Below are positions 11,943-63,411 of a stretch of DNA of 64,000 bases, one piece after another. Source of the stretch: Hyperoplus lanceolatus. Lineage: Eukaryota > Chordata > Actinopteri > Uranoscopiformes > Ammodytidae. A program made the translations under genes and the position numbers. The stretch lies in NCBI GenBank assembly GCA_026929865.2, contig CM049416.1, positions 5,073,501-5,137,500 on the forward strand. The letters run 5' to 3'. Within the stretch, counting starts at the first letter, position 1; each line of letters opens with the position of its first letter. The notes beneath the pieces are model-generated. The model was not told the origin of the DNA. It worked only from the letters and a program-made list of their open reading frames with translations, and made no database searches.

Positions 11943-13640
11943 TTTCAGTATAAAAGGGGGTATAGGAGTATAGGAGTTCCATAATTTAATGATGATGTTT
12001 GTATGGGGTTAACAACACTGACCTGAGATACTTGCTCCGATGTCCCTGACAGTTGGTGAGATGTTAAGAGAACTACTGTATATGCAGCCTACTCTTTCAG
12101 GCCTGGTTACATGTTACATCCCTAGAAGGACATAACTACATAACTAGAAGGACATTTTATAAAGAAGGAGATATTATATTTACCACATGTTCTACCAGAT
12201 ATTACAGTGCTCAGCTTTTGTTGGCAGCTGTTTGGAATTTATTAGCTGTTTCCATACAGCGGTCTGGTTTACAGTTCCAGCCAGACTAGAAACAGCAGGT
12301 ACCTGTAGATCGCCAAGAGATAAATGGTTTGGAAACACCTGACATTTGTTAGGGCTATAGGGTGTGTTATAATTGTAGTAAAACAGTTTGACATGTATAC
12401 CAGTTGGAAAAGCGTGCCCAGTGCCCACGGTATTAAAGTGGTATTGTTGGAGGATAAGTGCATGGGTGGGCTCCCACCTACTGTCAACATTTGATGAGGT
12501 GTTATTACAGTTGAAAGAGAGAGGGAAGGGAAGTAAAAGTCATTCCATACTTGCAGGGAGCTTGTTAAGCGAAATTTAAACATAAAAAAAATTAAAGATG
12601 ACAGAAGGAAAAAAGTAGCTGAACATAAACCTGTACCTAATGAAGTCAGGGGCTGTTTTAAATAAGTGCCCTTTTATGAACAATTACTACCACGTATTCA
12701 AAGGGTCTATTTTAAAAGCTGTATTTGGCAGTCAGCAGTGGCCTGCTGTCAGCGCAAAATCACAGTCTGACTTAACTGTCTGAGACATAATGATGGTGAG
12801 GTCAGCTTTTTTCCGTTCACTGATTATGAGCTTGCTAAAATAATAAGGCTTCTGTTGTTATTTCCTTTCATTGTTATTAACAATTCCCCTGCCGATACCA
12901 AATCCAAACAATTAATCCAACCTACTGACAGGTATATACAGTATAGTGAGTGTCTGCTGGAAATGCACTGAGGAAGAGGATGTACTACAGAATAAATAAT
13001 TAAACACATCTTCACCTCATCACTTCATATAGTGGAAAAAACTTGAGGAAGTGGTGGATGATGCCACCTCTAGCTTCTTGTCCTTGAAGGCCACCGTAGC
13101 TTCTGTAAATTCTCTCAACAAGAGGGGTTAGCAAGGGAGCGTCACACTGTACATTTAAGGTAAAAAACCCAAACCCAGGACACTCACTGAGTTGAAAAGT
13201 TGAAATATGGGATTTATTTCCAAAGCCGGTAAGAGGAATGGACTGCAGAGGCAAGTGAGGCGAGAGATTTGGCCTGAATTTTTCATCATCTATCATTTGA
13301 ATACATTTATTAAAAAAAAATATTTCTATTTTTGGTAACACTTTACAATAAGGGTACATTAATTAATGGTTAGTTAATGCTTAATAAGGTTTAACTAACC
13401 ATTAGTTAACTGTTAACTAATGTGTGTAGTAAGCATTTACTAATGGTATTCATGTTAACTAAGGTATTAATTGCTACATTATGTAATGTTTATAATTATT
13501 CTATATTAACCTTAGTTAACTCATTAATTAAGCTTGAACCAACAGTTGATTAATATAAGAATAAGCATTAACTAACTGTTAACAAATGTCATTTTTGTAA
13601 CATTACTAAAGCATAATTAACCATTTATTAATGCTCTTTG

Positions 13641-14030
13641 TGACCCTTATTGTAAAGTGGGAACCATTTATCCATTAAGTAACACTTAATAAATGCACAC
13701 CAGTGCTGAATAGGCATTACTGAAGCATAATTAACCATAATAGGCATTACTTAAGTGTAATTAACCATTTACTAATGGACTTTGTGACCCGTATTGTAAA
13801 GTGAGAACCATTTCTCATGAATTAACACCTAATAAAGGCATACTAGTGCTGATTAAGCATCACTTAAGCATAATTAACCATGTCTTAGTGTTATTTGTGA
13901 CCCTTATTGTAAAGTGGGAACCATTCATAACTTGTTACACTTAATAAATGCAAAACAGTGCTGAATAAGGATTACCTAAGTACAATCCATCAATCAACAT
14001 TGCTCTTTATGACCCGTACATTCTCTATAA
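13641..14030. repeat. Tandem end-like modules inside left arm
   Basis: Units starting TGACCCTTATTGTAAAGTG occur at 13641, 13785 and 13898, with a partial one at 14010; spacing is about 144, 113 and 112 bp. The unit is a near-copy of the element's own terminus in inverse orientation. Mirrored copies lie in the right arm at about 19050-19340. Such repeated terminal modules are a feature of foldback-type elements. Confidence 0.8.
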
Positions 14031-14534
14031 TAACAATATTAAACATACTACAATATTTCCAACTGGAAATCAATTCATGACAACAATCTGTTATCAACAC
14101 AATTCAGTCACAATTTAAAAAGAAAGTAAATGTTATTTTATTTAGAATCTTTAGTTTTATTTGGAAACACGGCTCTCACATTTGACATGAATACCGTCAA
14201 AGAACTCCAAAATAGTTTCTTCAACAAATTATATCCAGTTCAATGATTTTCTCTGAAAGTAACAAACAGGAGGAAATGGATTACTAACAGCAATGGTGAA
14301 ACACACTGACTCAACAGTTAGGTTTAACAGGTAAATATGTATTTTCTACTCTCTTCCTTGAAGTGTATATATCATTGTTGCAACATAAACAAAGATAAAA
14401 TACACAAAGAACATAACAGTTCCATTTTTTATTATGGACTAAAGATAAAACAAAATAATGATCACTTTCTTGTGACTAACCACTAGTTTAACCTGGCCCT
14501 ATCACTGTTATTTGAATGAACACATATGTATTTA

Positions 14535-14590
14535 ATTTAACCTTTATTTATACTCGAAAGATCAGTTGAGGGGTGACCCTCATTTATAAT
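14535..14590 (-). repeat. LINE 3'-tail relic (left arm copy)
   Basis: The plus strand reads TTTATTTATACTCGAAAG followed by GGGTGACCCTCATTT, matching the 3' end of the LINE inserted at 16534. The mirror copy sits at about 16416-16470 in the other arm, so this relic predates the palindrome. Confidence 0.65.
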
Positions 14591-16533
14591 CTCTCTCTCT
14601 CTTTAGATCCAGTTCTTGGGTTTGCTGGCCACTCCAGGCCTGGGTGCTCCTCTCCAAATGAAGCAGTTGGGCTGGAATCCAAGAATCTTGTCTAATCACC
14701 AAGTTGATGTACATGGAAAAAATTTAAATAATTAGTTAACAGTTCAGATGCATTTTTGTTTCCTTTATCTAAATCATTATAGCATAGCATTACGGTTCCA
14801 CATTATGTATTATTATTATAACATAATGCATTGCATTGCTGAAACTGAAATATCTTTGGTACCTTAATCAAATAAAATTCGCACTGAACCTTTAACAAGT
14901 TGACACTATTTTTTCATTCAAAAAACATGTAATCTCTATGACGATTCTACACATGCTCAGTTTAAACCCATTTTAGCCTGGAATAGCAACGTGCACTTTG
15001 AATATGGAAAAGGCTTACATGTGTTCACATATGGTTTGGTGTCTATAAACACACACTTTATTTAGCCACCACTACAATTACTGCTAAAAGTTACCTGTGA
15101 AGCTAGCCAGCACAAGCCTCATGCTAACGGTGCTATGCTAGCGGGAGGCTGCATCACTAATATATTTCACATTATTGATTTCTTACATACACACACACAA
15201 CTTTACCATCTCACGAATACCTTAGTTAACTCACCAATAATTTCGTTGGGCTAATGGCAGCATACTGTAATTGTAACCACCACGGGTCTTTTGTGAGACT
15301 AAAGCACATAGCTGCTGGCCTGCTGCTTCACTGTCCAGACACACATCCTCTTTCTTGCTGGCTGATCGCTGGGCGAGTTCAAGTGCTTGTAAAACGTGGG
15401 TAATCCTAATGTCAATAAGGTTTGTAAAGAAATATTTTTCTTAAGTAAAGTCTCCAAACATATTTTCACCTTCCCAAAGTTGAAAATACATTGCATACAT
15501 ACATGCATTCCCTCTACAGCCATTGTTGATTATCAATAGCCTATTATTGATCATTTAAATCACCTATAGATCTAGTTTTTTACTGGATCCTGGCCACTGA
15601 GAGGATAGAAAGACGGATGTGTGCCTGGACAGTAAAGGCAGCAGCTGAGCTACGTGCCAGCTTGACCTGACCGACCCATTATTCTCACACAAAATACCAG
15701 TGGTGGTTACAGTTATGCTGCCATTAGCCAAATGAAATTATTGGTGAGTTAATTAAGGTGTTAGTGAGATGATATAGTTGTGTGTATGTAAGAATACTTT
15801 GAAATATATAAGCGACACAGCCTCCCGCTAGCATAGCAACGTTAGCATTAGCACGCTGCTATATGAGCAGCGTTAGCATGAGGCTTGTGCTGGCTAGCTT
15901 CACAGGTAACTTTTAGCAGTAATTGTAGTGGTGGCTAAATAAAGTGTGTGTTCATGGACACCAAACCGTATGTGAATAAATGTTAGCATTATTCCATATG
16001 CAAAGTGCATGTTGCTATTTCTTGCTAAACTGAGCTAAAGCTGAGCATGTGTTGTGTAGAATCGTCATAGAGATTACATGTTTTTTGAATGAAAAAATAG
16101 TGTCAACTTGTTAAAGGTTCAGTGAGAATTTTATTTGATTAAGGTACCAAAGATATTTCAGTTTCAGCAATGCAATGCATTATGTTATAATAATAATACA
16201 TAATGTGGAACCGTAATGCTATGCTATAATGATTTAGATAAAGGAAACAAAAATGCATCTGAACTGTTAACTAATTATTTAAATTTTTTCCATGTACATC
16301 AACTTGGTGATTAGACAAGATTCTTGGATTCCAGCCCAACTGCTTCATTTGGAGAGGAGCACCCAGGCCTGGAGTGGCCAGCAAACCCAAGAACTGGATC
16401 TAAAGAGAGAGAGAGATTATAAATGAGGGTCACCCCTCAACTGATCTTTCGAGTATAAATAAAGGTTAAATTAAATACATATGTGTTCATTCAAATAACA
16501 GTGATAGGGCCAGGTTAAACTAGTGTTTAGTCA

Positions 16534-18494
16534 TTCATTCATTCATTCATTTCCTTTATTTATTCTCGAAAGATCAATTGAGGTTACCCTCTTTTACAAT
16601 GACGTCGAGACAGATACACAATATACAATGAGAATACACAACAAGCTTACAAAGAGACAACAACAATTAAAACATTCAGATCAATTGAATAAAATAGAAC
16701 AATAGCCTAATTAAAACAGTTACAAGTGGAGTGGGGCTGATTCAAAATAATAACTTTAAATTGGTTAACAGTTATGAGTGTATTTATTTTAATTTGATGT
16801 TGTAGGCTGTTCCAGGAGTCAGGGGCACTGTGGCTAAAAGCAGTCTTACCAAGGTCAGACCGGGTGTATGGAACATATAACATGAGCATTTCAGTTGAGC
16901 GGGTTTGATAAAGCCCATCTGAGATGTGCAGCATTGTTGTCAAATAGAGTGGCAGCTTTCCGGTCAGGGCTTTATATATAAAAATATGCCAATGTGCATC
17001 ACGTCTCTCTTTAAGAGAGGACCAACCAACCTTTTCATATAAAAGACAATGGTGAGTGTCATAAGCATCTCCTGTAATGAACCTTAAGGCAGAGTGAAAA
17101 ACGGAGTCTAGGAGTTTAAGACATGATTGAGATGCATGCCTATAAACCACATCACCGTAATCAAGGACAGACATAAAAACTGCCTCAATAATCCTTTTCC
17201 TACTGAACAACGGGAAGGTGGCTCTGTTCCTATAAAAATATCCAATCTTTTGTCGCAGACGACAGACAAGATTTTTTATGTGAAATTTAAAAGATATTTT
17301 CTCATCTATCCAGATGCCGAGATATTTATATTCAGTGACTCTTTCAATTTGAGATCCATTATTTGTATGAATATTAAGATCATTAAAATGTATAGTTCTT
17401 GCTCTGGAGAAACACATATATTTTGTTTTGTCTGTATTAAGAACAAGCCTGAGGTCCACTAGACAGTCAGGGTGTTAAAAGAGCTCTGAAGGTTCTGAAC
17501 AGATTGATGGACCGAATCAGAAATGCAATACAGTACAGTGTCGTCAGCATACAAATGGGCTTGACAGTTTTGTAGCGATGAAACAATGCTATTGATGTAA
17601 ATTGTGAATAGGACTGGACCTAAATTGAGCCCTGCGGAACACCATTTGTAACTGTTAAAAACTCAGTTTGGTGGCTTCCCAGTTTTACTGACTGCTGTCT
17701 ATCAGAGAGATAATCCCTAAACCAGCTACATGTAGAATAATCAAAACCAATATCATGCAGCCTCTGTAAAAGCAAATGGTGATCTAAAGTATCAAAGGCT
17801 TTTGACAGATCAACAAAAAGTGCTGCACAGTGCTTTTTATTGTCGATAGCTGTAACAATGTTGTCTAAGACCAAAGTGACAGCAGATACAGTACTGTGAC
17901 CTGCCCTGAAACCAGATTGAAATGGGCTCAGAATGGAAGCACTGGATAAAAAGGTTTTCAACTGATTATTAATAACTGATTCTAGGATTTTTGCCAGGCA
18001 TGGGAGTTTTGAAATTGGCCTGTAATTATTGAGATCACTTTTGTCACCCCCTTTATGCAATGGGATGACATGAGCTTTTTTCCAAACTTTAGGAACAATA
18101 CCGGAGGAGATGGAAAGATTAAAAATATGGGTTATTTGTTTTGATATTATATGTGTAGAGAGATTGATTGAAAATGGGTCCAAATTGTCCTCCCCCATAT
18201 ACTTCCTGGGGTTGATGGCTAGAAGCGCATCTACAACAACACTTGTTGGAACTGGAACAAGGCTAAAAAGAGGAGTTTGAGAGACAGGCGCTACGTTACT
18301 ACTAGTTGTAGAGGGTGTACATCCTCCATTCTGAAAAAGTTGACCAGCAGCTAAAAAATGTTTATTAAAAGCTAAACCAATCTCTTTCTGGTCATTTAAA
18401 ATCTGACCATTTATTTTTATCTGACTGGGAACAGTGCTAGACTTGTTTTTATTATAATTGACAGCCTTCCAAAATAATGCAGGGTTGGAGTAGC
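16534..18494 (-). mobile_element. L2/CR1-like LINE, 5'-truncated, in palindrome right arm
   Basis: About 1.96 kb, minus strand. The 3' end at the left shows ATTCATTC repeats, followed by the tail phrase CTTTATTTATTCTCGAAAG. A 5-bp duplication AGTCA flanks it (16529-16533 and 18495-18499), as shown by comparison with the unoccupied site in the left arm. The 5' truncation falls in the linker ahead of the reverse transcriptase; the endonuclease is missing. Confidence 0.85.
16707..18198 (-). pseudogene. LINE reverse transcriptase and C-terminal domain, frameshifted
   Basis: The upstream piece (17620-18198) carries NNYRPISKLPCLAKILESVI, SGFRAGHSTVSA, the catalytic-region motif LFVDLSKAFDTLDHH and GVPQGSI. 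One base appears lost right after GVPQGSI (near 17620). The next stretch, including a YADDT-type active-site box on the minus strand near 17540-17560, is in another frame. The downstream piece (16707-17459) carries KYLGIWIDEKISF, DYGDVVY, the conserved HSALRFITG block and the C-terminal SAPDSWNSLQ block. Motifs fit the L2-like group. At least two frame breaks separate the blocks, so the copy is dead. Confidence 0.85.
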
Positions 18495-19649
18495 AGTCAC
18501 AAGAGAGTGATCATTATTTTGTTTTATCTTTAGTCCATAATAAAAAATGGAACTGTTATGTTCTTTGTGTATTTTATCTTTGTTTATGTTGCAACAACGA
18601 TATATACACTTCAAGGAAGAGAGTAGAAAATACATATTTACCTGTTAAACCTAACTGTTGAGTCAGTGTGTTTCACCATTGCTGTTAGTAATCCATTTCC
18701 TCCTGTTTGTTACTTTCAGAGAAAATCATTAAACTGGATATAATTTGTTGAAGAAACTATTTTGGAGTTCTTTGACGGTATTCATGTCAAATGTGAGAGC
18801 CGTGTTTCCAAATAAAACTAAAGATTCTAAATAAAATAACATTTACTTTCTTTTTTAAATTGTGACTGAATTGTGTTGATAACAGATTGTTGTCATGAAT
18901 TGATTTCCAGTTGGAAATATTTTAGTATGTTTAATATTGTTATTATAGAGAATGTACACGGGTCATAAAGAGCATTGTTGATTGATGGATTGTACTTCGG
19001 TAATCCTTATTCAGCACTGTTTTGCATTTATTAAGTGTAACAAGTGATAAATGGTTCCCACTTTACAATAAGGGTCACAAATAACATTAAGAAATGGTTA
19101 ATTATGCTCAAGTGATGCTCAATCAGCACTAGTATGCCTTTATTAGGTGTTAATTCATGAGAAATGGTTCTCACTTTACAATAAGGGTCACAAAATCCAT
19201 TAATAAATGGCTAATTACACTTAAGTAATGCCTATTATGGTTAATTATGCTTCAGTAATGCCTATTCAGCACTGGTGTGCATTTATTAAGTGTTACTTAA
19301 TGGATAAATGGTTCCCACTTTACAATAAGGGTCACAAAGAGCATTAATAAATGGTTAATTATGCTTAAGTAATGTTACGAAAATGACATTTGTTAACAGT
19401 TAATTAATGCTTATTATTATTTTAATCAACTGTTGGTTCATGCTTAATTAATCGGTTAACTAAGGTTAACATAGGATATTTATAAACATTACATAATGTA
19501 GTAATTAATACCTTAGTTAACATGAATATCATTAGTAAATGCTTACTAGACACATTAGTTAACAGTTAACTAATGGTTAGTTAAACCTTATTAAGCATTA
19601 ACTAGCCATTAATTAATGTACCCTTATTGTAAAGTGTTACCCTATTTTT

Positions 19650-51716: not shown

Positions 51717-52160
51717 CTCAAAAAAGGCTTTAGTTTTCGAGATTTAGGCCCTTCCGAATAGGGACAACTTGACAAAAAAGCCCATAACTTGGGAATGCTC
51801 ACTCTTTTCTTCATCAGATTTGCTGAGGCACTAACCAGGTGTCTGTCCCACATCACAAAAAAGTTAGAATGTAATTTACCAAAACATTTATTGAAATACG
51901 GTCCTGTAAACATAGCTTTAGTTTAGGCGGAAATGGTAATTTTGTGGTGATAGGAAAAGAGGGCTCCTTTACTTTTCTCTCAAATATCACCAACACATAA
52001 ATCCCTACCAAATACACTTTTAAATGTATTGTCTAGGATGCTATTGATCAATAACCAGTGGTTTTATGGAGATATCTAGAACAGTTCTATTGCAAATGCG
52101 ATTTCTTTATGCGTGTCACTGCTCTGAAACAGCCAAATTAGAGCATTCCGAATAGTGTAT
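51717..52160. repeat. Left long inverted repeat of Academ-like element
   Basis: Matches 62977-63411 in inverse orientation nearly end to end; for example GGACAGACACCTGGTTAGT on the right is complemented at about 51830-51850. The frame seen through each copy (MWDRHLVS, NLMKKRVSIPK) is the same in both only because the DNA is repeated; it is not a gene. Confidence 0.85.
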
Positions 52161-52802
52161 AGGGAGCATTAGCATTTAAGTCAAGAATGTTTTTTGCTCA
52201 CTCTGATGGTCATAAACTACACAAATGAATTACATCACCAAATGGTCAGTATTTGAATAAACCAATAAACTTAAAAAAAATAAAAAAATAACTGAGATAA
52301 CAACAATGTACAAAAAGCAAATATTTAAATCAATATCTCCTAACTAAATCAAAGTTTCATTTCAGTAGTCAGAACTACACAGTGAAACAAAGTGCATTGA
52401 TACATTTATATAGCTTTTTATTTAAGCAGTTGGACACACTCTGTCACTATGGTTACAAAACATTGTAGCAAAATTGCCGCAGCAGCAGCCAATCCAGGAG
52501 CGGCGTTTTCCCGCTCTTTTGAGTTCTCAGCAGAGATTTACTCTGAAAGTGTCAGAAGATCCAGATAGTTACAGTTCTGTTCAAATCATCCCAAATGAAA
52601 AGAAATATGAGATGTACCAGGATGGAAAGAAGCCTCCAATCTAATGACAGATGGGACTAACAGGTAACACGAATGTCCAACTATGATATTTTATTCATAT
52701 TTTAAAGAATAAGTTGTTTTATTTGAAAGATGTAGGCTGACAGAAGCTAGCATAAGTTGACAGTTGGTGTGTGTTCCATATTCACCAGAGTTCACTGTAA
52801 AG

Positions 52803-53456
52803 ATGGAGGCCAGAGAGCCAGCAGAGGCAGCAAGCCAGCCATGTCCACTTACACTGGACGCAAAGTTGTGCTTGTTACGCGAAAACGCTCTACAAGGAGA
52901 TAGAAAGGATCCATATGTGAAAAACCCCACTTTGGAAGGACTCAAAACCGTATTGAAGGTTGCCCAGGAACGAGATGATGAGGTTCATAAGAGACTATCC
53001 CCCCACTCAGCCAACATACTGTCTTTCAAGGTCAAGGTTTCATATCACAGATCATGTAGGGCCAATTATTCAAGTGGAAACCATTGTCTTACAACCATTA
53101 AGCAAGAACCAGCCGAAGATAAGCGTCAAAGTAAAAGACCGTCCAGGGACACTGGATTTGACATCCGCAGCCAGTGTTTCATTTGCAGCCAAAAAGCCAC
53201 AAAAAGAAAAGGCCTGACCCCTGCCAGTACTGGTACAGGTGAAAGTACAAGGTCAACGGTCCTCAATGCAGCATCAGAAAGGTTTGATGAAATAATACAT
53301 CACCGTATGCTGACCCATCAAGATCTTTTTGCCTATGATTCAAAGTATCACAGAAGCTGCCTAGCACACTATGTTTCAGAAAGGAACATTTCAGCAGCCA
53401 GAAACAAACATCTGACAGAAAAGAAGTTAAGTGAACACCAAAGAGCTTTCATTTAG
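52803..53456 (+). pseudogene. N-terminal zinc-binding region of Academ-like protein
   Basis: ATG at 52803 opens about 218 residues (MEAREPAEAASQ...). Two similar modules are visible. The first has KVSYHRSCRANY near residue 83. The second begins with CFICSQ and ends with DSKYHRSCLAHYV after a stretch of about 70 residues (KGLTPAS, SERFDEIIHHRM). The C..C plus H...C pattern suggests zinc binding and probably DNA or protein contact. The frame ends at TAG (53454-53456), but similar coding continues beyond it. No promoter was identified upstream; 52480-52660 is the likely leader. Confidence 0.7.
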
Positions 53457-53496
53457 CTTACCAAAGAATTAACAAAAACAGTTTTTTTCAAGGGAT

Positions 53497-54414
53497 ATGA
53501 CTGTCACAACATTGAGTGCGGTTACTGAGAGCTATGTACACAAACTGATCATAGATGAAGAACCAGCGATGTACACATCTTGGAAGCTAAGGGAAAAGTT
53601 GATCCAACATTATGAAGATAAACTCATCTTCATTGAACGTCCTGGAAAATCTGATCTACTCTGTTCCGGTGGTATTACTGTTGGCCAAGAAGCTTCCCTC
53701 CTCAGAGAAAAAATAACAGAAGAAAGGGAAACTGCCTCCACAGAAAACAGAGACCCTCACTGACACTCAAATCCTACACCAGGCTGCAGGTATATTGAGG
53801 AAAGCAATGGAAGAGGTTGAGCATGAGCCTCAATTCTACATAAGCAGTGATAGGCTTTCCCTTCTCCAGTGCAGTGCATATGTGCCAAACACGCTATATC
53901 ATTTTATGAACTGGTGTGTTGATTCAGGTGCGTTTAGAAAAGTGCAAACCTGTGATGAGGACCCAGCTATGAAGGAAAATCTGAGTGTAATAACCTTTTG
54001 CCACAATCTAATTGCACAGTGCTGCAGCAGACGTACACCTATCACACTAGGACTTGGTATTATGATCCATCAGGAGTTCGGCAGCAAGGCCATTATCGAC
54101 AAGCTACACACAATGGGTCATTGTGTGTCTTATGATGAAGTGCGTCAATTTCTAACATCTGTTGCAGCAGATCAATTGAATGGAAGCAAAAGTGTTTACA
54201 TCCCAAATGGACTGACAAGAACCACAGAACATGGGATAATTGATGCAGCCATTGACAACTTTGACCAGAATGAAGAGACACTGGATGGCAAGAATACAAC
54301 ACATGCAATGGCAATTGTTGTATACAGAAGGGGTGACCAACCCCATCCAAAGAATTCCAAAGAATTTCTCACTGCTCTAAACAGCTGTGACTTGGATAAT
54401 GAAGACGTTCAGAG
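53497..54414 (+). pseudogene. Transposase-like core, first part
   Basis: The coding sequence continues in two frames (53497-53763 and from before 53795 to 54414) with a small frameshift near 53730. Recognisable family blocks: SWKLREKLIQHYEDKLIFI, AGILRKAMEEVE, VITFCHNLI, TLGLGIMIHQEFGSK and AIDNFDQNEETLDGKNTTHA. In the last block the Asp at about 54254 is the probable first catalytic acidic residue of a DDE-type transposase (inferred from family motif position). The exon ends at a GT donor (54415). Confidence 0.7.
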
Positions 54415-54704
54415 GTAAATGCAAAAGTCCAAAAATGTAACAAATACAAACTTGAAGCCTCTGTTACAATTGAATATTGGAGAAAGATTAGTCTCAAGTA
54501 ACATTACTTTGATGTGCCAAAACATGATCTGTGGTAAAGCCGGAGCCCGAATTGTACAACGACCTGTAATGTAATAGAAAAAATTACTTTAGAGGGTCTT
54601 TAATATAGAAATAATACTTACCTTTTCTTTGTACTGAGACATTAAATATATACATACTATTATTAAGGAAACACATATAACTTAAGCTTCCCCTCTGATT
54701 TCAG
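54415..54704 (+). other. Probable intron
   Basis: 290 bp, bounded by GT (AGAG/GTAAAT) and AG (TTTCAG/GTACATC). Joining the two sides keeps the reading frame (EDVQR then YIKPQRRSE), and the preceding open frame ends just inside the donor. Confidence 0.75.
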
Positions 54705-55256
54705 GTACATCAAGCCACAAAGGCGATCTGAACCACCAGCAGTTATACCACAAGTCCTCAAATCAGACAGCACAAAGGCTCAAGCAACAGAGTGCCTGGA
54801 CTTACTTTGGAAGGTGAGCCGTATCATGAAAGAAAAAAGAACAGAGAATCCCAGGATGGTCTGCATTCAATGCTTGCATATCCATGTCAAAAAATCCAGT
54901 AGCCACAGTACAATACATGCCCTTCATAACAGCTTCACTATCAGACCTATCCACCATATATACAGCTCTTTTGAAGCTCACACAGCTTTCTGAAGAACTG
55001 GGACAGAGCCATATTCTTGTAACTGCTGATCTTGCTATCTATAGCAAAGCACAAACAAATTCTCTGGAGTAAACCTGAGGCATTGGATGGGAAGGTTACA
55101 ATGAGAATGGGAGGCATGCACATCACCATGGCCTTTCTTGCAAGCATTGGAAAGTTGTATGCTGACGGTGGTCTCTTCGACATAATAACTGAGTCTGGTG
55201 TGTATGCTGAGGCAGCAGCTCGAGGGACGCTACAAGGGAAACAGTTTGCAAGAGGT
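54705..55256 (+). pseudogene. Transposase-like core, second part
   Basis: Blocks in order: YIKPQRRSEPPAVIPQVLK, IPGWSAFNACISMSKNPVA, STIYTALLKLTQLSEELGQ, HILVTADLAIYSKAQ, MRMGGMHITMAFLASIGKLY and ESGVYAEAAARGTLQGK. The Asp in TADLAIY (55028-55030) is the likely second catalytic acidic residue. Frame changes lie near 54836 and 55058. Coding is cut at 55256 by an LTR-element insertion and resumes at 57922 with the expected next block. Confidence 0.7.
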
Positions 55257-57921
55257 TGTTGTGGAATTGTTTATTACAGTCATAATAATTATGTGTTTAC
55301 ATAGACTAGTCCCAGAGGCAGAGCCAGCAGATGGCTAAAACACCAGGAACATCAACATGGCTGATTCTGTGTTGGGACAACTTGCACTGGGCAGGGAATG
55401 TCCTGAACAACAACCAGAGAATGGACTGCAGTTGCAGTCCCAGGTGCGGAGAGGCAGTGAGAGAGTGGGAGACTGACTGGCCGGAGAGGAGAGACAGAGA
55501 GGGGTCCACAGGGGGGTGAGATGCACCAAACACACAGTGACTCTCACTGTCCAGTAATATTATTATTATTAAATGCTTAATTTCCCCATCTGAATTGTCT
55601 ACACCAGAATTGTTAGTGTCACGCTAGGTGATTACATTTTTGGCTAATTATGGTATAACATATCTAATTTGTTTTGATAGACAACTGAGTATTGTACTGT
55701 ATCCAAGGTCTCCATATTTACATACCTCTCTTGCAGGTGAAAACTCCACAAGGACATTTACCCAAAACACGGCTATAGGCCGGGCAAGTGACTGCAGTGA
55801 CTAAAGTAGTGTTAGTTTAACCACAAGAGCATGTTTCCTTTATACACACACAATTATGAAACAATTATTTAATGATAGAAAAGTACTTCTAATATTGCGC
55901 TATAGCATCATTTGTCAGTAGAATTTTCTAAAAATAACAGTGTGTAAGACGGAATGTTATTATTCCCAAGCCACACAATTTCCAAAAAGGGATAATCATT
56001 TTTAAATGACTTCAGAATTTTCAAAATGAGTTAAGCCTCTGCAGAGCAAAACTTTATACATGATCATGGACTGACTGACTAAGACTGACTGTTTAATTCT
56101 TTTACAACTTTTTCCTAATTCACTCTTACTGCGTTCTCCTTACAGACAGAACAATGCAATAGATAAGTCTTTTCTCCCTCTCAGCAGAGCTGATAAGAGC
56201 TCAGGAGAATGTTTACCAAAACAATGTATGTTTCTAGACAGAAGGGCAACCCATGTTTTGACCAAATTTAGTTTATCTTACACATGGTAGTAAGAGAAGG
56301 GGGGAAATAGAAATACATAATTTACAAATAGCACCAATTTGTTTTAACAAAGCTTCAAAAAACTATTTTAAACTAAAGTATGTATTGTGTCCATAACAGC
56401 GTTTAACATTGGATTCCTTTCAGAGAGAGAGAGAGAGAAAGGGAGTGTGTGCTGGTGTGGTTGAGTGACCATGGGACACCAACATTGAGTGCCTGTGTGT
56501 GTCCGAGAGAGAGCGTGCAAGGATGAACGTGCATGTGTGTCTGATTGCATTTGACAGCCTGCATGTTTTTGTTAGAGAAGGAACGGGAAAGCATGTGTGT
56601 GTGTGTGTGTGTGTGACTGACTGCATGCATGTGTGTGAGAGGAAGGAGAGATTGATAATCACTCTTTCAACAGGTTTAGCACCTCTGACCACCAGAAGAA
56701 AGAAGATCTACATTGATAAAATGTTTAAATTTGATAAAATCCTGCGACCTAAAAGCCACCATAGCGATACACAATAATACCCATTGTATTGTTTTTGTCT
56801 TTAGTTCACTTCATCACCTCTTTGTCTGGTTAAAATGTGTTCACACATTTGTTTAGAAAACTTTGATCTAGAATATGATGACACCTGGACACCAGGCCTT
56901 TGATTTATGCTAACCTTTAATTATATCCTGCAACTTAACATTACCCTTACGGTATATTAATCTACATTTAATAGTGAACATCAATTCTTTCTTACAACAT
57001 TTTATTTAGTTTTGTTTAGAATTATACTGCCATATAACATTACTTTTGATTTAAATCTTTTAAGCATAGCTGTTTAATTTTTTTAACAGAACTGTCTGAA
57101 CATGTTTTCCTCTTTAACGATCTATGAGTTTTGTTTTTTCCAAATGATCAGTTCTGTTAGTTAGTATAGTTAGTGCAGAGGACCTTTTGACCTCCTTTCG
57201 CTAATTGTGAGGGGGCATGTTTGTTTCTATGTGTATAGGTGTGGATGACCTGTGACCTCTGTCCGCCTATTTTTAATACCCTGCCCACTGGGATAAGACA
57301 CTTGAAAAGGCCACTCTGGCCTTGGCGGACAATCTCACAGGCCATCCCGTAGAATTTTAATGTACGCTTTTGCCATTCCATATAAACATGTTTAACCTTT
57401 AATTATTAGAATTTGTTTTTAGAATGATTATTATTGTGATTTAATTATAATCAGAGAAGGAAATGTTGTGGAATTGTTTATTACAGTCATAATAATTATG
57501 TGTTTATATAGACTAGTCCCATCTTGACTCTAAATATTCGTAAGTTAATCAACAAAAGTTCTGACCTGACCTTATGGTGAAGGTTGTTATGTTCTGAGAT
57601 ACTCAAACTGCGTAAGGAATGTATGTTTTGACCCAGATGGCTCCGGAGAACTATGTCTGTAAGATAACTAACACTATATCTGGCTGAGGAGAATCTTGTA
57701 CGTAGGCTGGAATGTTCGTGCGTAATTAGATTTCCCTATAAACTCTCTGTATGACCGCCTATCGTTGGTCATTTCACACAATCCCATTGCTGTATTGTTG
57801 TCTTGACTCATGTTTGCAAACATTAAAGATCTGTTCTATTTTTGTATTTAAACATTGTGTCACCTCGTATTAATTGACAAAATTCTCATCTTTTAAAGGT
57901 TGATATTTCAATTCCACGACA
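55257..57921 (+). mobile_element. LTR retroelement fossil (retrovirus-like), broken
   Basis: Inserted in the Academ-like gene with a 4-bp duplication AGGT (55253-55256 and 57922-57925). The right LTR is 57464-57921 (458 bp), begins TGTTGTGGAATTG and ends CAATTCCACGACA; it has a TATA-like CCTATAAACTC and a possible poly-A signal. A purine tract lies just before it. At the left edge only a short piece of the matching LTR is kept (55257-55314). The interior shows no recognisable gag, pol or env. Broken, with large losses; the family within LTR elements is open. Older than the second LTR insertion, judging by its state. Confidence 0.85.
57464..57921 (+). repeat. Right LTR of first LTR fossil
   Basis: Complete-looking 458-bp LTR with inverted TG...CA termini that are complementary over about 12 bases. 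Confidence 0.88.
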
Positions 57922-57925
57922 AGGT

Positions 57926-59190
57926 GTTAGGAGCATCAAGCTTGTGTCTGAGGCTCTGTGTAGGCTTTTCTGGATGGCAATGGTTTCCTGGTTTAACAAA
58001 CCAAAAAATCCATTGAATGGTGCACAAGAGCACCTCCTGTGAGAAGTACAGCATGCTTTTCATGGCAACAATCAGGCCTGTGCCAGACAGGTCTTAAATC
58101 AACTGGAGGCAGACCTTCCTGAGCTGAGGGGAACAATACAGCTGTTTTCAGAGAGCGGAGCTCAACAATCAGCAACATTTAGGTATTGGCTGACTTTCAT
58201 CGAAGGGGCAGATCTCTTACTTAGAGTTCTGCGTTCAGAGCGTGAAGCTAACTTTGAACTTCATCTCAACTGCATGTCTGAAGTAATATCATGGTTTCAG
58301 GCTGCTGGCAGGACCAACTACGCAAAGTACATGCCTGTGTACATAGCTGAAATGAAAGCCCTTGAAAAAAGCCAACCAGATAGCCACAAATTCATGAAGG
58401 AAGGAGGTTTTGTTGTGAGACGCTCAGATGACAATTTAACTGTGTCGCCACGGATCAAGCCCTCGAACAGACCATCAACAGAGAAGGTAAGAGTCAATGA
58501 GGCATTATCGGCTTCACTCTCAGAAAGGGGCTCTGAAAAGATGGCTCATCACAAGGCATGTCACCAGCGAGTACCGCCATGCCATGACAGAGATTTGCGA
58601 AGGAGCAACACATGCACACAAATTCCACAAAGAGCATGGAGCAGCCCGTATGGACAGGGATGAGAAGGAAACTGTACAAATAATACAGTTTTTACAAGAC
58701 AGGCAGAACCCATTTGACCTTGATAAAGTTCCTGATGAGCTCATTAATATTGCTAGCGGCCAAGTAGCGTCACAAAAGGTGGCACACGATCTCTCAAGCT
58801 TTCTGGAAGTTGGGCAAAAGCAAAATGCAGTTCTCATTGATGAAGGCCTAAAGAGTGGAACACCAAAAAGTTTCTGGGATCCTGAGAAAAGACAGAAATT
58901 GGCAACATTCACAGATATGAAAACATGCATAGCAAGCAGTAAGTCTAAACAGCTTCACATGGATTCTGATGTGCTCTTCAGAAGATTACTGGCGGTATCA
59001 AAACAAAGAGACGTGTCATTGGAGAAAGTAATGTGCCATGAATTGGCTGCTGTCCCACCCTCTCTCTTCTATGCTGATGGAGCGATGAGAAAAACCACAA
59101 AATCTGACCTTGCAAAGAAACTGGAGTGCGTAGTTGAAGTGATGCAGGAGCTGCCGGACAACCACAGAGAAATCGGCATATATAATTGAT
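57926..59190 (+). pseudogene. Transposase-like core, third part
   Basis: Resumes with GVRSIKLVSEALCRLFWMAM, then FRYWLTFIEGADLLLRVLR, CMSEVISWFQAAGRTNYAKY, MPVYIAEMKALEKSQPDSHK and FVVRR. After a frame change near 58430 comes ATDQALEQTINREGKSQ, whose Glu (58465-58467) is the probable third catalytic residue, then GFTLRKGALKRWLITRHV. A well-kept 230-residue frame (58497-59189) follows. TGA stops lie at 58039 and just before 58500. The blocks and their order match proteins seen widely in fish and cnidarian genomes. Confidence 0.7.
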
Positions 59191-59484
59191 GGCATGGATA
59201 TGCTTCAATGTCTCCATGATTCAGCTTTTCAGACCTTCAGTGAGCTAGCAGAATGTGTCCTAAAGAAGATCCTGTCACTTTTGATTAAACCAGAAATGAA
59301 ATGTGTGGTCATGGTGTTTGACAGGTATGACAACACAAAGTCAATCAAAGCCCTGGAGAGGCAGAGGAGAGGTGCATGTGATGTTAGACCTACACATGTA
59401 ATAACTGGCAACACAAATGTTTCCAAACTACAGGAAGTACCTGAGGAGTAGTGGCAACAAAGCTGCGCTCTGCGTATTTGTGAG
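59170..59484 (+). pseudogene. XPG/FEN-like nuclease, N-terminal half
   Basis: Reads YIIDGMDMLQCL (Asp at 59188-59190), then CVVMVFDRYDNTKSIKALER with QRRG. XPG-family nucleases have an N-terminal Asp in an IDG-type motif and a VFDG...K...RR block, so both match. Frame shifts are present near 59185 and near 59430. The second LTR element cuts the coding sequence at 59484. Confidence 0.65.
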
Positions 59485-59823
59485 TGTGGTAGCCGAATCC
59501 CCCATGGCTTGACAAGACAAAGGTAGTAGACTGGACTTATCATCAGTGATCAGGTTTATTCAGAAGGAGATTCCAGAAGACATACAGAGGATTTCATGGT
59601 AGCAGTAGCAGCAGGCTGAGGCCGCAATGGCACTGTCGTTGCTAGTTAGAGAACCCGTTTATATCTGTGTGTGGGGTGTATCATGTGTTCTTAATATCTG
59701 CAAATAGACATATCGTTTCATCACAACAAGTCAAGCACATGTCCTTACAGGGATCTGACCTTAACCTTTAGATTCTATTTGCTCAGCAACTCTGGTGAAT
59801 AGAGGCTATTCAAATCTACAACA
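59485..59823 (-). repeat. 3' LTR of the minus-strand LTR element
   Basis: 339 bp; direct copy of 60747-61082. On the minus strand it begins TGTTGTAGATTTG and ends GGCTACCACA. Confidence 0.92.
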
Positions 59824-60746
59824 TTCCTCCATTTAGAATTAACTAATTCTACCAAAACAAGATGTAACCAAACATATTTGAATAGCCTAACAGAAACCTC
59901 CAACAAAACACAGAAACACTCTTTATGAGTGAAGTAGAATACAATGCATAGATGAAAGCATTACTGCAGTAAACTACAAAAGAAAGGGACCAACAAAGCA
60001 ACTGCATAAACACAGAACGAAGATAAAAAGAGAATAGGGTGCAAGAGCCCTCTGCAGCCGAAACTCAAGAGTCTCAAGTTCAGATATATTTAGCCATGGT
60101 CAGCTTGCATGGGAAATGTAGTCCATCCAACTTTGGCACAGAGGACGGCTCCTCCATTTCAAACTTGGCAGACTCCGCCAGACGTGGCCAGCCGCCCAGG
60201 AAAGTCCAAGATGGTATGCGGTTGGCATGCGTGTGGCCATCTCCGTTATCAGCCATGACCACGGAATGCACTTGCGACAGCGCGGGGGCCGTAACCCGAG
60301 CATTCAGCTTACTTGATGACAGACGTTGGTCTCCAATCTACTTCCTCAAGTTCTTTAGCGTACATAAGGCACAGAGCGACTTAACAAGCTCGAAACCAGT
60401 CCAGCCTTTTTCCCAAAGTCTTAGTCAATAAAACGGGCACACGGTTCTTTGTTATAACAGTGGAACTACTGGATACCTGGCCATAACGGAGCCTCTGTGA
60501 AGTCCCCCAGACCGACGCTACGCCGTGACCTTGAACTTTGACACAGAGCACTCTCATCCGAGTTCACATTATCTCCCGTAGCAGTTCTCAGTTATTTTTA
60601 GATACTGGAACAGACATGAACCTTTCAACTTGGACGTTCATCCGGGATTCCCACTTTGTTCTGCATTTCTCATTTCATCAGATGATTTCCGTCCAAGTAC
60701 AGGTAGATTCATCGTGTTCCTGTTATATCCTGTTCGTGACGCCAAA

Positions 60747-61082
60747 TGTGGTAGCCGAATCCCCCATGGCTTGACAAGACAAAGGTAGTAGACTGGACTT
60801 ATCATCAGTGATCAGGTTTATTCAGAAGGAGATTCCAGAAGACATACAGAGGATTTCATGGTAGCAGTAGCAGCAGGCTGAGGCCGCAATGGCACTGTCG
60901 TCTAGTTAGAGAACCCGTTTATATCTGTGTGGGGGTGTATCATGTGTTCTTAATATCTGCAAATAGACATATCGTTTCATCACAACAAGTCAAGCACATG
61001 TCCTTACAGGGATCTGACCTTAACCTTTAGATTCTATTTGCTCAGCAACTCTGGTGAATAGAGGCTATTCAAATCTACAACA
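60747..61082 (-). repeat. 5' LTR of the minus-strand LTR element
   Basis: 336 bp; direct copy of 59485-59823, differing at only a couple of small sites. Confidence 0.92.
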
Positions 61083-61086
61083 TGAG

Positions 61087-61672
61087 CAACTACATCGTCA
61101 CTGCTGCCCCACAGAGAATACACCCAGCTGACTCCATCATCTTGGCTGGTGGATTTCAGAAAGGTGAGGAGGTGAAGTACATCTGTAAAGCAGGAGTCAG
61201 CTGTTTGACATCTGTGTACAGTGATCAGGAAGAGGCTGACACAAGAATGGTGTTACATGCCATACATCTCGCAGCAGAGTCGTATTCCCAAATGATCGTA
61301 AGATGTGATGACACAGATGTGGAAGTACTGCTTATTTATTATGCAGGCAAAAGAATGTTTAGGGAATCTACAGTGTACATGCATACAGGCCATGGCATGA
61401 GAGAGAGGTATATCCCCATCAACCTCATATCAGAGAAACTGGGAAAAGACATTTCCAACTGTCTACCAGCATGTCATGCGCTCACTGGCTGTGACACTAC
61501 CAGTAGCTTGTTTAGAATAGGAAAAACCACAGCATTCACCAAACTAAAGAATCATCTCAACCAGCTCAAAGATTTGACATATTTTGGACTTTTTGCGAGT
61601 TTGGAAGAGTCCTTGCCAGTAGCAAGAGAATATGCATTATTTCTTTATGGGAAAAAAAGGAAGATGGAGTAA
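61087..61672 (+). pseudogene. XPG/FEN-like nuclease, catalytic C-terminal half
   Basis: The frame resumes after the LTR element and carries SDQEEADTRMVLHAIHLAAE, then IVRCDDTDVEVLLIYY, HTGHGMRERYIPINLI and HALTGCDTTSSLFRIGKTTA. These correspond to the XPG-I acidic motif (EADxxL), the following acidic DDTD pair, and the helix-hairpin-helix of the GCD...GIG..TA type used by flap nucleases to hold DNA. The acidic residues are intact. A one-base slip in an A-run near 61655 ends this frame early; coding continues in the next frame. The fold call is from motif recognition only. Confidence 0.7.
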
Positions 61673-62076
61673 TGTGCTCAAATTTGGATGAACTAAGATT
61701 CATTGTTGCATCAACAACAGATGCAGCCTCTTCATATCTGCCACCAACCGAGGATGCATTTGCACAACATGTGCAAAGAGCAAAGTATCAGACAGCAATA
61801 TGGTGCCACAGCCACATACCGAAACCACTATTGTGGTGTCCAATCGGTAATGGATGGATTGTCAAAGATGGAACGATTCAACCAGTCCTGTTTACCAAAC
61901 CCGCAGCACCTACAGAAGTTAGAGACATAACACACTTATATTGCAAAGATGCAAACTGTGGAGAAAGTGGAAAGTGCCAGTGTCTCTCTGTTGGCCTTCC
62001 CTGTACGGAGTTCTGCACCTGCTGTGCAGAATGTCAGAACGTGTCTCCAAATGTGTCTGAAGAAGCTGATATTTGA
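61655..62076 (+). pseudogene. Cysteine-rich C-terminal tail of Academ-like protein
   Basis: Begins around MCSNLDELRF and continues LPPTEDAFAQHVQRAKYQT, then a typical C-terminal cluster: CKDANCGESGKCQCLSVGL, PCTEFCTCCAEC. Ten or so cysteines in 30 residues suggest a zinc-binding tail. Stop TGA at 62074-62076. The 900 bases up to the right inverted repeat are AT-rich, non-coding, and include a possible ATTAAA signal near 62270. Confidence 0.7.
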
Positions 62077-62079
62077 TAT

Positions 62080-62976
62080 CCTTGTATATACTTCACTGCT
62101 TATAAACACACATCTGTATATGTGTATGAAAGATCCAAATACTTTGAAATGTTACAATATATTAAAATATTGACATGGTTATTATACTTTACACTGTATT
62201 TTGCCAACCTCAAACATGGATTTAGAGGATATTGATTTAAATAGTTGTTTTTATATTCATGTTTCAATTAAAGGACTATTGACAACACTCGTTTATTTTA
62301 AATGGCCCATGTTTTTATTTTCAAATGATGTATATGCATATGTGTTTTGGGTGTTACCTACAACTCTATGTGAGTAAACGTTACTGCTTGCAACTTACCT
62401 TGCCTGGTACTTTCATTGTGGTAACTGTTTATATCACTTAGCTCCTTCGGAACCTAGAGCAATATTGACTTACTCAGAGTGGGTTACACGGATATAATAG
62501 CAATTACACCACTCAAACAGGCTAAACTGATGTATTGGTCAGGCTTTGAAGTAGATATTTACTTGTAAGCATAGAAGGTCAGCATACAACTCATGATCTG
62601 ATTATGTAATTCATGAAAATATGCATAACTCCGCTAATATTTGAAGGTTTTACCACAATTTGATTCCCTGAATGCCAGATAAATGAAGTTGGGTACTTTC
62701 TAGCATGTTTTAAATAGCACCACTGCCTTGTCCATCCTTGAAAATGTAGGATTAGACACCATAATCTTGATCCTAGGTGCTCAACCCAAGCTACTGGTAC
62801 TATAAGAGCTGGTGGTGGCCATTTTTAAAAATGGGCGCCATAGGAACAATTTGTGATGGCCCTATAGCAAAAAAATCTTCCTTAAGGCATACTCTAACAG
62901 TGTGCCAATGCTCATGTATGTGTCATAAAAAGCACAATGCATTCACATATCTGCTGGACTATAGGCTATTATGTCA
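62080..62976. other. 3' non-coding part of the Academ-like element
   Basis: No gene seen. A short frame at 62777-63055 runs into the inverted repeat and is not supported. Confidence 0.5.
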
Positions 62977-63411
62977 CCTATCCCCCATTCGGAATGTCCT
63001 AATTTGGCTATTTCAGTGCAGGAGTACTTCTAGAGAAATCTCATTAGAAATGTAACTGTAATAGATATCTTCATACAACCACTGGTTATTGTTCAATAGC
63101 ATCCTAGACAATACATAAATGGTATATTTGGTAGGGATTTATCTTTTGGTGATATTTGAGAGAAAAGTAAAGGAACCCTCTTTTCCTATCACAACAGAAG
63201 TACCATTCCCGCCTAAACTAAAGCTATGTATACAGGACCCTATTTCAATAAATGTTTTGCTAAATTACATTTTAACTTGTTGGTGATGTGGGACAGACAC
63301 CTGGTTAGTACCTCAGCAAATCTGATGAAGAAAAGAGTGAGCATTCCCAAGTTATGGACTTTTTTGTCACATATCCCCTATTCGGAATGGCCTAATTTGG
63401 CTCTTTTTGAG
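62977..63411. repeat. Right long inverted repeat of Academ-like element
   Basis: The partner of 51717-52160. A motif of about 30 bases, ATTCGGAATG then CCTAATTTGGCT, occurs twice: at the inner edge (62987-63015) and near the outer edge (63380-63408). The left copy carries matching complements at its two edges. It may be a transposase binding site present in duplicate. Confidence 0.85.

Follow-up and report, generated by a model that had tools for sequence, protein, structure and literature searches.

The 64,000-nucleotide window analysed here, from contig CM049416.1 of the fish Hyperoplus lanceolatus, carries at 51717-63411 a long gene enclosed by inverted repeats. The element is almost certainly a large, decayed DNA transposon with terminal inverted repeats (TIRs) that encoded a DDE transposase with a fused nuclease. 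When the last 14 kb were compared with the whole window by blastn, the repeats 51744-52163 and 62977-63395 were found to be 87.9% identical over 420 columns (E 1.4e-149), while an ungapped comparison divides the similarity into two pieces of 92% and 82%. The same search at E 1e-5 found no third copy in the window. When the arms are aligned with MAFFT, the similarity continues beyond an 11-base gap as far as CTCAAAAA at 51717 and the mirrored sequence at 63411, giving a left TIR at 51717-52163 on the plus strand (solid similarity from 51744) and a right TIR at 62977-63411 on the minus strand. The ends proposed for the element in an earlier note, made from the sequence alone, are thereby reached. 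In the right arm the outer stretch 63353-63406 is repeated at the inner edge (62960-63013, 85%). With at most one mismatch, the motif CATTCCGAATA occurs four times in the 64 kb, always within the two repeats at outer and inner positions, a count reached by 1 of 100 shuffles; these copies may bind the transposase. At the mirror ends no target duplication was matched, and the five 3-bp and two 4-bp matches among 400 off-mirror end pairs are at chance level, since 73% of random place pairs in a grid of the same kind show some 4-bp match.

Relatives of the encoded protein were collected with the open piece 61058-61672 (93 relatives, five named as Dissostichus), with a search in which 135 residues from 58043 onward were scored (11 longer relatives), and with the relative P0102 (68 rows including P0102 itself, the best 7,991 candidates being scored), some of the proteins having about 1,600 residues. 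Close relatives include Dissostichus and Epinephelus proteins, a closeness that points to a bony-fish host. Chosen relatives match the window by tblastn in a single collinear chain on the plus strand from 52851 to 62070, in agreement with the ordered coding blocks described earlier, and the Dissostichus protein P0094 covers 54062 to 59238 at 75-94% identity per piece. The chain begins with an N-terminal part holding two Cys/His (zinc-type) repeats (52851-53492; P0113 46%, P0099 48%), the first CxxC of which is degraded in this copy, followed by the linker and winged-helix region of the transposase (53473-53730; P0099 46%, P0095 62%). The first half of an RNase H-like core, with candidate Asp 54254 in DAAIDNFD, lies at 53738-54414 (P0094 80%, P0095 75%) and ends at a probable spliceosomal intron of 290 bases (54415-54704, AG/GTAAAT to TTTCAG/G), across which P0094 is continuous. 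The core resumes at 54705-55256 in three frames with Asp 55028 (TADLAIY) and His 55119 (GGMH; P0094 75-81%), and its helical insertion and catalytic Glu 58465 (TDQALEQTINRE) are found at 57922-58530 in two frames (P0094 77% and 94%). A linking region (58521-59162; P0094 82%) leads to the FEN/XPG-type nuclease, whose first half occupies 59161-59484 in two frames (P0001, P0007, P0101) and whose second half occupies 61083-61672 (P0034 82%, P0001 63%). The C-terminal part (61675-62070; P0101 57%, P0013 53%) holds a Cys-rich, CXC-like tail at 61939-62037.

Two long terminal repeat (LTR)-type insertions interrupt the gene at sites over which relatives are continuous. At 55257-57921 lies an LTR-type remnant with ends TGTTGTGGAATTG...CAATTCCACGACA and a 4-bp flank repeat, AGGT; its first repeat is shortened to 58 bp (55257-55314, repeated at 57464-57521 with 98% identity). 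An LTR retrotransposon-like element at 59485-61082 (repeats 59485-59824 and 60747-61083, 99.1%; 4-bp flank repeat TGAG) divides the nuclease coding region in two, and P0001, P0007 and P0101 run through this site by tblastn. The nuclease block given in the earlier note as 59170-61672 thus holds the expected nuclease parts, but it is not one uninterrupted block, as 1.6 kb of unrelated sequence lies within it. The inserted 1.6-kb element is young, and as only about 920 bp separate its 340-bp repeats it is probably non-autonomous. Outside the intron, tblastn and alignment show that the coding region changes frame nine times and contains three in-frame stops. The copy is dead and no longer coding, yet each candidate catalytic residue is retained.

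Conservation of the transposase core was counted in two alignments, A2 and A1, each count being taken over the sequences ungapped in that column. The second Asp (55028) is D in 32/32 (A2) and 37/37 (A1) sequences, the catalytic Glu (58465) is E in 31/32 and 45/46, and the His 30 residues past the second Asp (55119) is conserved in 32/32 and 38/38. The Asp of a TDQ motif is likewise D in 32/32 and 46/46, and in the GGMH of the window the His is present while C/D is absent. For the first Asp, position 54254 is D in 22/22 and 19/20, and an alternative three residues on (54263) in 22/23 and 19/20; because the two are almost equally conserved, the choice between them is not proven. According to the alignments and the window codons, the conserved D, D and E are encoded at the three positions named earlier (54254, 55028 and 58465), with 54254 as a candidate. 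In the predicted structure of a relative these residues fall on an RNase H-like core, as in a DDE/D transposase. The predicted model of the relative P0103 has a winged helix at about residues 214-302, and 26 of its 50 listed structure matches lie at residues 201-330; of the remaining 24, 17 belong to DDE transposases or RAG1 (chains of ISCth4, Hermes and RAG1) and 7 to HIV reverse transcriptase. In a relative's model, helices 720-895 follow strand 682-686 and precede the Glu helix. In RAG1, Hermes (hAT) and ISCth4, too, a helical insertion lies ahead of the Glu helix of an RNase H-like core, and the models hint that the DDE core of this family carries a RAG1/Hermes-like insertion domain.

Part of this core coincides with DUF6589 (PF20231), a "family of unknown function". 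P0150 scores above the cut-off of the family (45.7 against 27, residues 113-426), P0151 (24.5) and P0156 (22.8) score slightly below it, and P0096 (13.8) and the window piece 58043-58663 (12.4) well below it. Because the P0150 match includes, by alignment, the second Asp at 124, the conserved His at 153 and the Glu at 378, we conclude from the sequence comparison that DUF6589 represents part of the DDE core of this transposase; no mention of DUF6589 was found in the literature searched. The Pfam hAT and RAG families had no match in the window pieces or in 13 of the 14 relatives scanned, the sole hAT DNA-binding domain lying at residues 21-68 of P0095, an N-terminal piece without a tblastn match to the window.

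The nuclease motifs read earlier from the letters (IDG, VFDRYD, EEADTRM, DDTD and GCDTTS..RIGKTTA) are present in the window by alignment and codons. In the first half the window codons give Asp 59188, Asp 59320, Lys 59347, Arg 59368 and Lys 59459; in the second half, matched to the alignment columns, they give Glu 61232, Asp 61238, Asp 61310, Asp 61316, Asp 61493 and Lys 61523. Both the relatives and the window have seven acids, D, D, E, D, D, D, D, in FEN1 order, and these acids and a Lys/Arg pair are retained in nearly all of 46 relatives. In FEN1 the seven acid places bind metal. The nuclease of this family resembles FEN1, EXO1, XPG and GEN1 in fold, in the order of the acids, in a Lys/Arg pair 7 apart and in an IGK motif past the last Asp. 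It differs from FEN1 in having Asp instead of the second Glu at the fourth acid place and a second-to-third acid gap of 102 rather than 72, and from all four enzymes in being fused to a transposase.

Structure models of relatives, which are of good confidence, gave the FEN1/EXO1/XPG-type fold that the earlier note had led one to expect, over about 380 model residues. The XPG-N and XPG-I families sought on the same grounds did not appear: Pfam XPG_N and XPG_I matched none of ten window pieces and none of the 8, 6 and 27 proteins scanned, some of which lack the nuclease, and neither Pfam nor PDB profiles detected sequence similarity of the nuclease to FEN1, EXO1, XPG or GEN1. As judged from the predicted models, the nuclease shares the XPG/FEN1/EXO1 fold but falls outside those sequence families. 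The Cys-rich tail noted earlier can be described as CXC-like, as the CXC family PF03638 (Tesmin/TSO1-like) exceeds its cut-off in the relative P0151 (30.0 against 23.5), though in no further relative scanned, and the profile of alignment A1 matches LIN54 in the PDB (E 0.0034). This tail may bind DNA.

The nuclease of the Academ nuclease lineage, AcademX, is of XPG type; the naming of Academ and AcademX reportedly goes back to Kapitonov and Jurka in 2010 and Kojima in 2020. Academ was reportedly first described in Strongylocentrotus purpuratus, the species of the relative P0151. Of five AcademX features considered, three were found here: terminal inverted repeats, a DDE/D core and a nuclease encoded with the transposase. 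A DDE transposase with a nuclease and inverted repeats is common to AcademX and this element, the present copy being broken by its two insertions. The element very probably belongs to this lineage and is AcademX-like. Taken together, that it is a decayed TIR DNA transposon of the Academ nuclease lineage has a probability of roughly 0.8. The computation shows the order of its parts, the conservation of its candidate catalytic residues, the folds predicted for relatives and how the copy is damaged. The AcademX-like identity proposed earlier, set against AcademX by description, also fits a published account (PMC10045372), though none of the matches listed has "Academ" in its name. By the definition given there, AcademH is the helicase-encoding lineage of the same superfamily; it has 9-10 bp target duplications against 3-4 bp in AcademX, and the author relates the difference to the helicase and the nuclease. 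No helicase family was found in 8 relatives at E <= 1 or in 6 relatives at E <= 0.5. KolobokE, KolobokD and KolobokP likewise combine a DDE transposase with an accessory nuclease, but theirs are lambda-exonuclease-like, DEDDh or His-Me enzymes rather than FEN/XPG-type, and KolobokD and KolobokP are reported in animals (PMC9587614). Since Academ copies are recorded in zebrafish, medaka and stickleback (PMC4746887) and in southern platyfish (PMC4705583), the presence of Academ in fish is not new, and the element is a further, dead member of an already described transposon type.

Under the scenario we propose, the ancestor would have encoded one protein of about 1,500-1,600 residues. Its zinc-type repeats and winged helix probably bound the inverted repeats, its DDE core with the helical insertion domain would have cut the ends and joined the 3' ends to the target, and the FEN1/EXO1/XPG-type 5'-nuclease and CXC tail would complete the protein. 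DDE enzymes cut and join 3' ends, and at junctions the 5' strand is what FEN-type enzymes cleave; releasing or trimming the 5' ends would thus be the task that suits the fused nuclease best. At the ends of the transposon the nuclease may act on the non-transferred (5') strand, removing the donor flank or a 5' flap before or after strand transfer, and the element would thereby supply its own flap nuclease. Host FEN1 is thought to trim 5' ends after retroviral integration. We give processing of the 5' strand at the ends slightly less than an even chance.

The same element could instead use its nuclease for opening hairpins left on the donor flanks by a DDE core whose insertion domain is like that of RAG1 and Hermes. 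RAG and Hermes cores leave hairpins on donor flanks, and Artemis opens them for RAG. Given such an insertion domain, to which the 17 transposase and RAG1 chains matched by the P0103 model and the predicted helices before the Glu helix point, hairpin opening remains a rival, if an unlikely one. Somewhat less unlikely is that the nuclease does not cut ends but serves in target choice or later repair, or as a regulatory or structural part. The sister lineage AcademH, described with a helicase in PMC10045372, indicates that not every Academ element requires a nuclease; the near-invariance of the seven acids and the Lys/Arg pair across the 46 relatives, however, points to catalysis under selection.

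That the locus is a host gene, a domesticated transposase, and not a transposon copy is hardly credible: the probable intron and the retained candidate catalytic residues would suit such a gene, but 88% inverted repeats stand on both flanks and the coding region is broken by two retroelement-type insertions, by three stops and by nine changes of frame. Within the transposon reading, it is distinctly doubtful that a single chain unites a RAG1/hAT-like hairpin-forming core with its own FEN-type nuclease that opens donor hairpins or trims 5' ends. If it did, one protein would do the work of RAG and Artemis, or of an integrase and host FEN1, and the nuclease would have a part in keeping the target duplication short in AcademX, as against the 9-10 bp of AcademH. 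At the level of fold, the family offers a case in which a nuclease of FEN1/EXO1/XPG type, with its metal-binding acids retained, is invisible to sequence profiles. The fold of the nuclease, the hint of a RAG1/Hermes-like insertion and the DUF6589 assignment make its role answerable by bench work on intact relatives.

Some public gene models match the transposase under host names, such as Beta-glucanase in Dissostichus and Ankyrin-1, Sprouty-related or Flotillin-1 in Nymphon; these models (P0094, P0146-P0149, P0160 and P0162-P0164) are likely misnamed or chimaeric. Two transposase relatives, P0144 and L001, stand in bacterial records (a Sedimenticola metagenome-assembled genome and a Bathymodiolus symbiont contig) and are probably host DNA in symbiont assemblies. 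Elsewhere in the window, a further long inverted repeat pairs 13334-14477 with 18495-19641 (97.0% over 1,147 columns). An inner inverted repeat pairs 14473-15355 with 15607-16533 (87.6%), and a LINE-type reverse transcriptase lies between the outer arms at 17620-18510 on the minus strand (RVT_1, E 8.7e-23). The whole structure at 13334-19641 is perhaps a recent inverted duplication.
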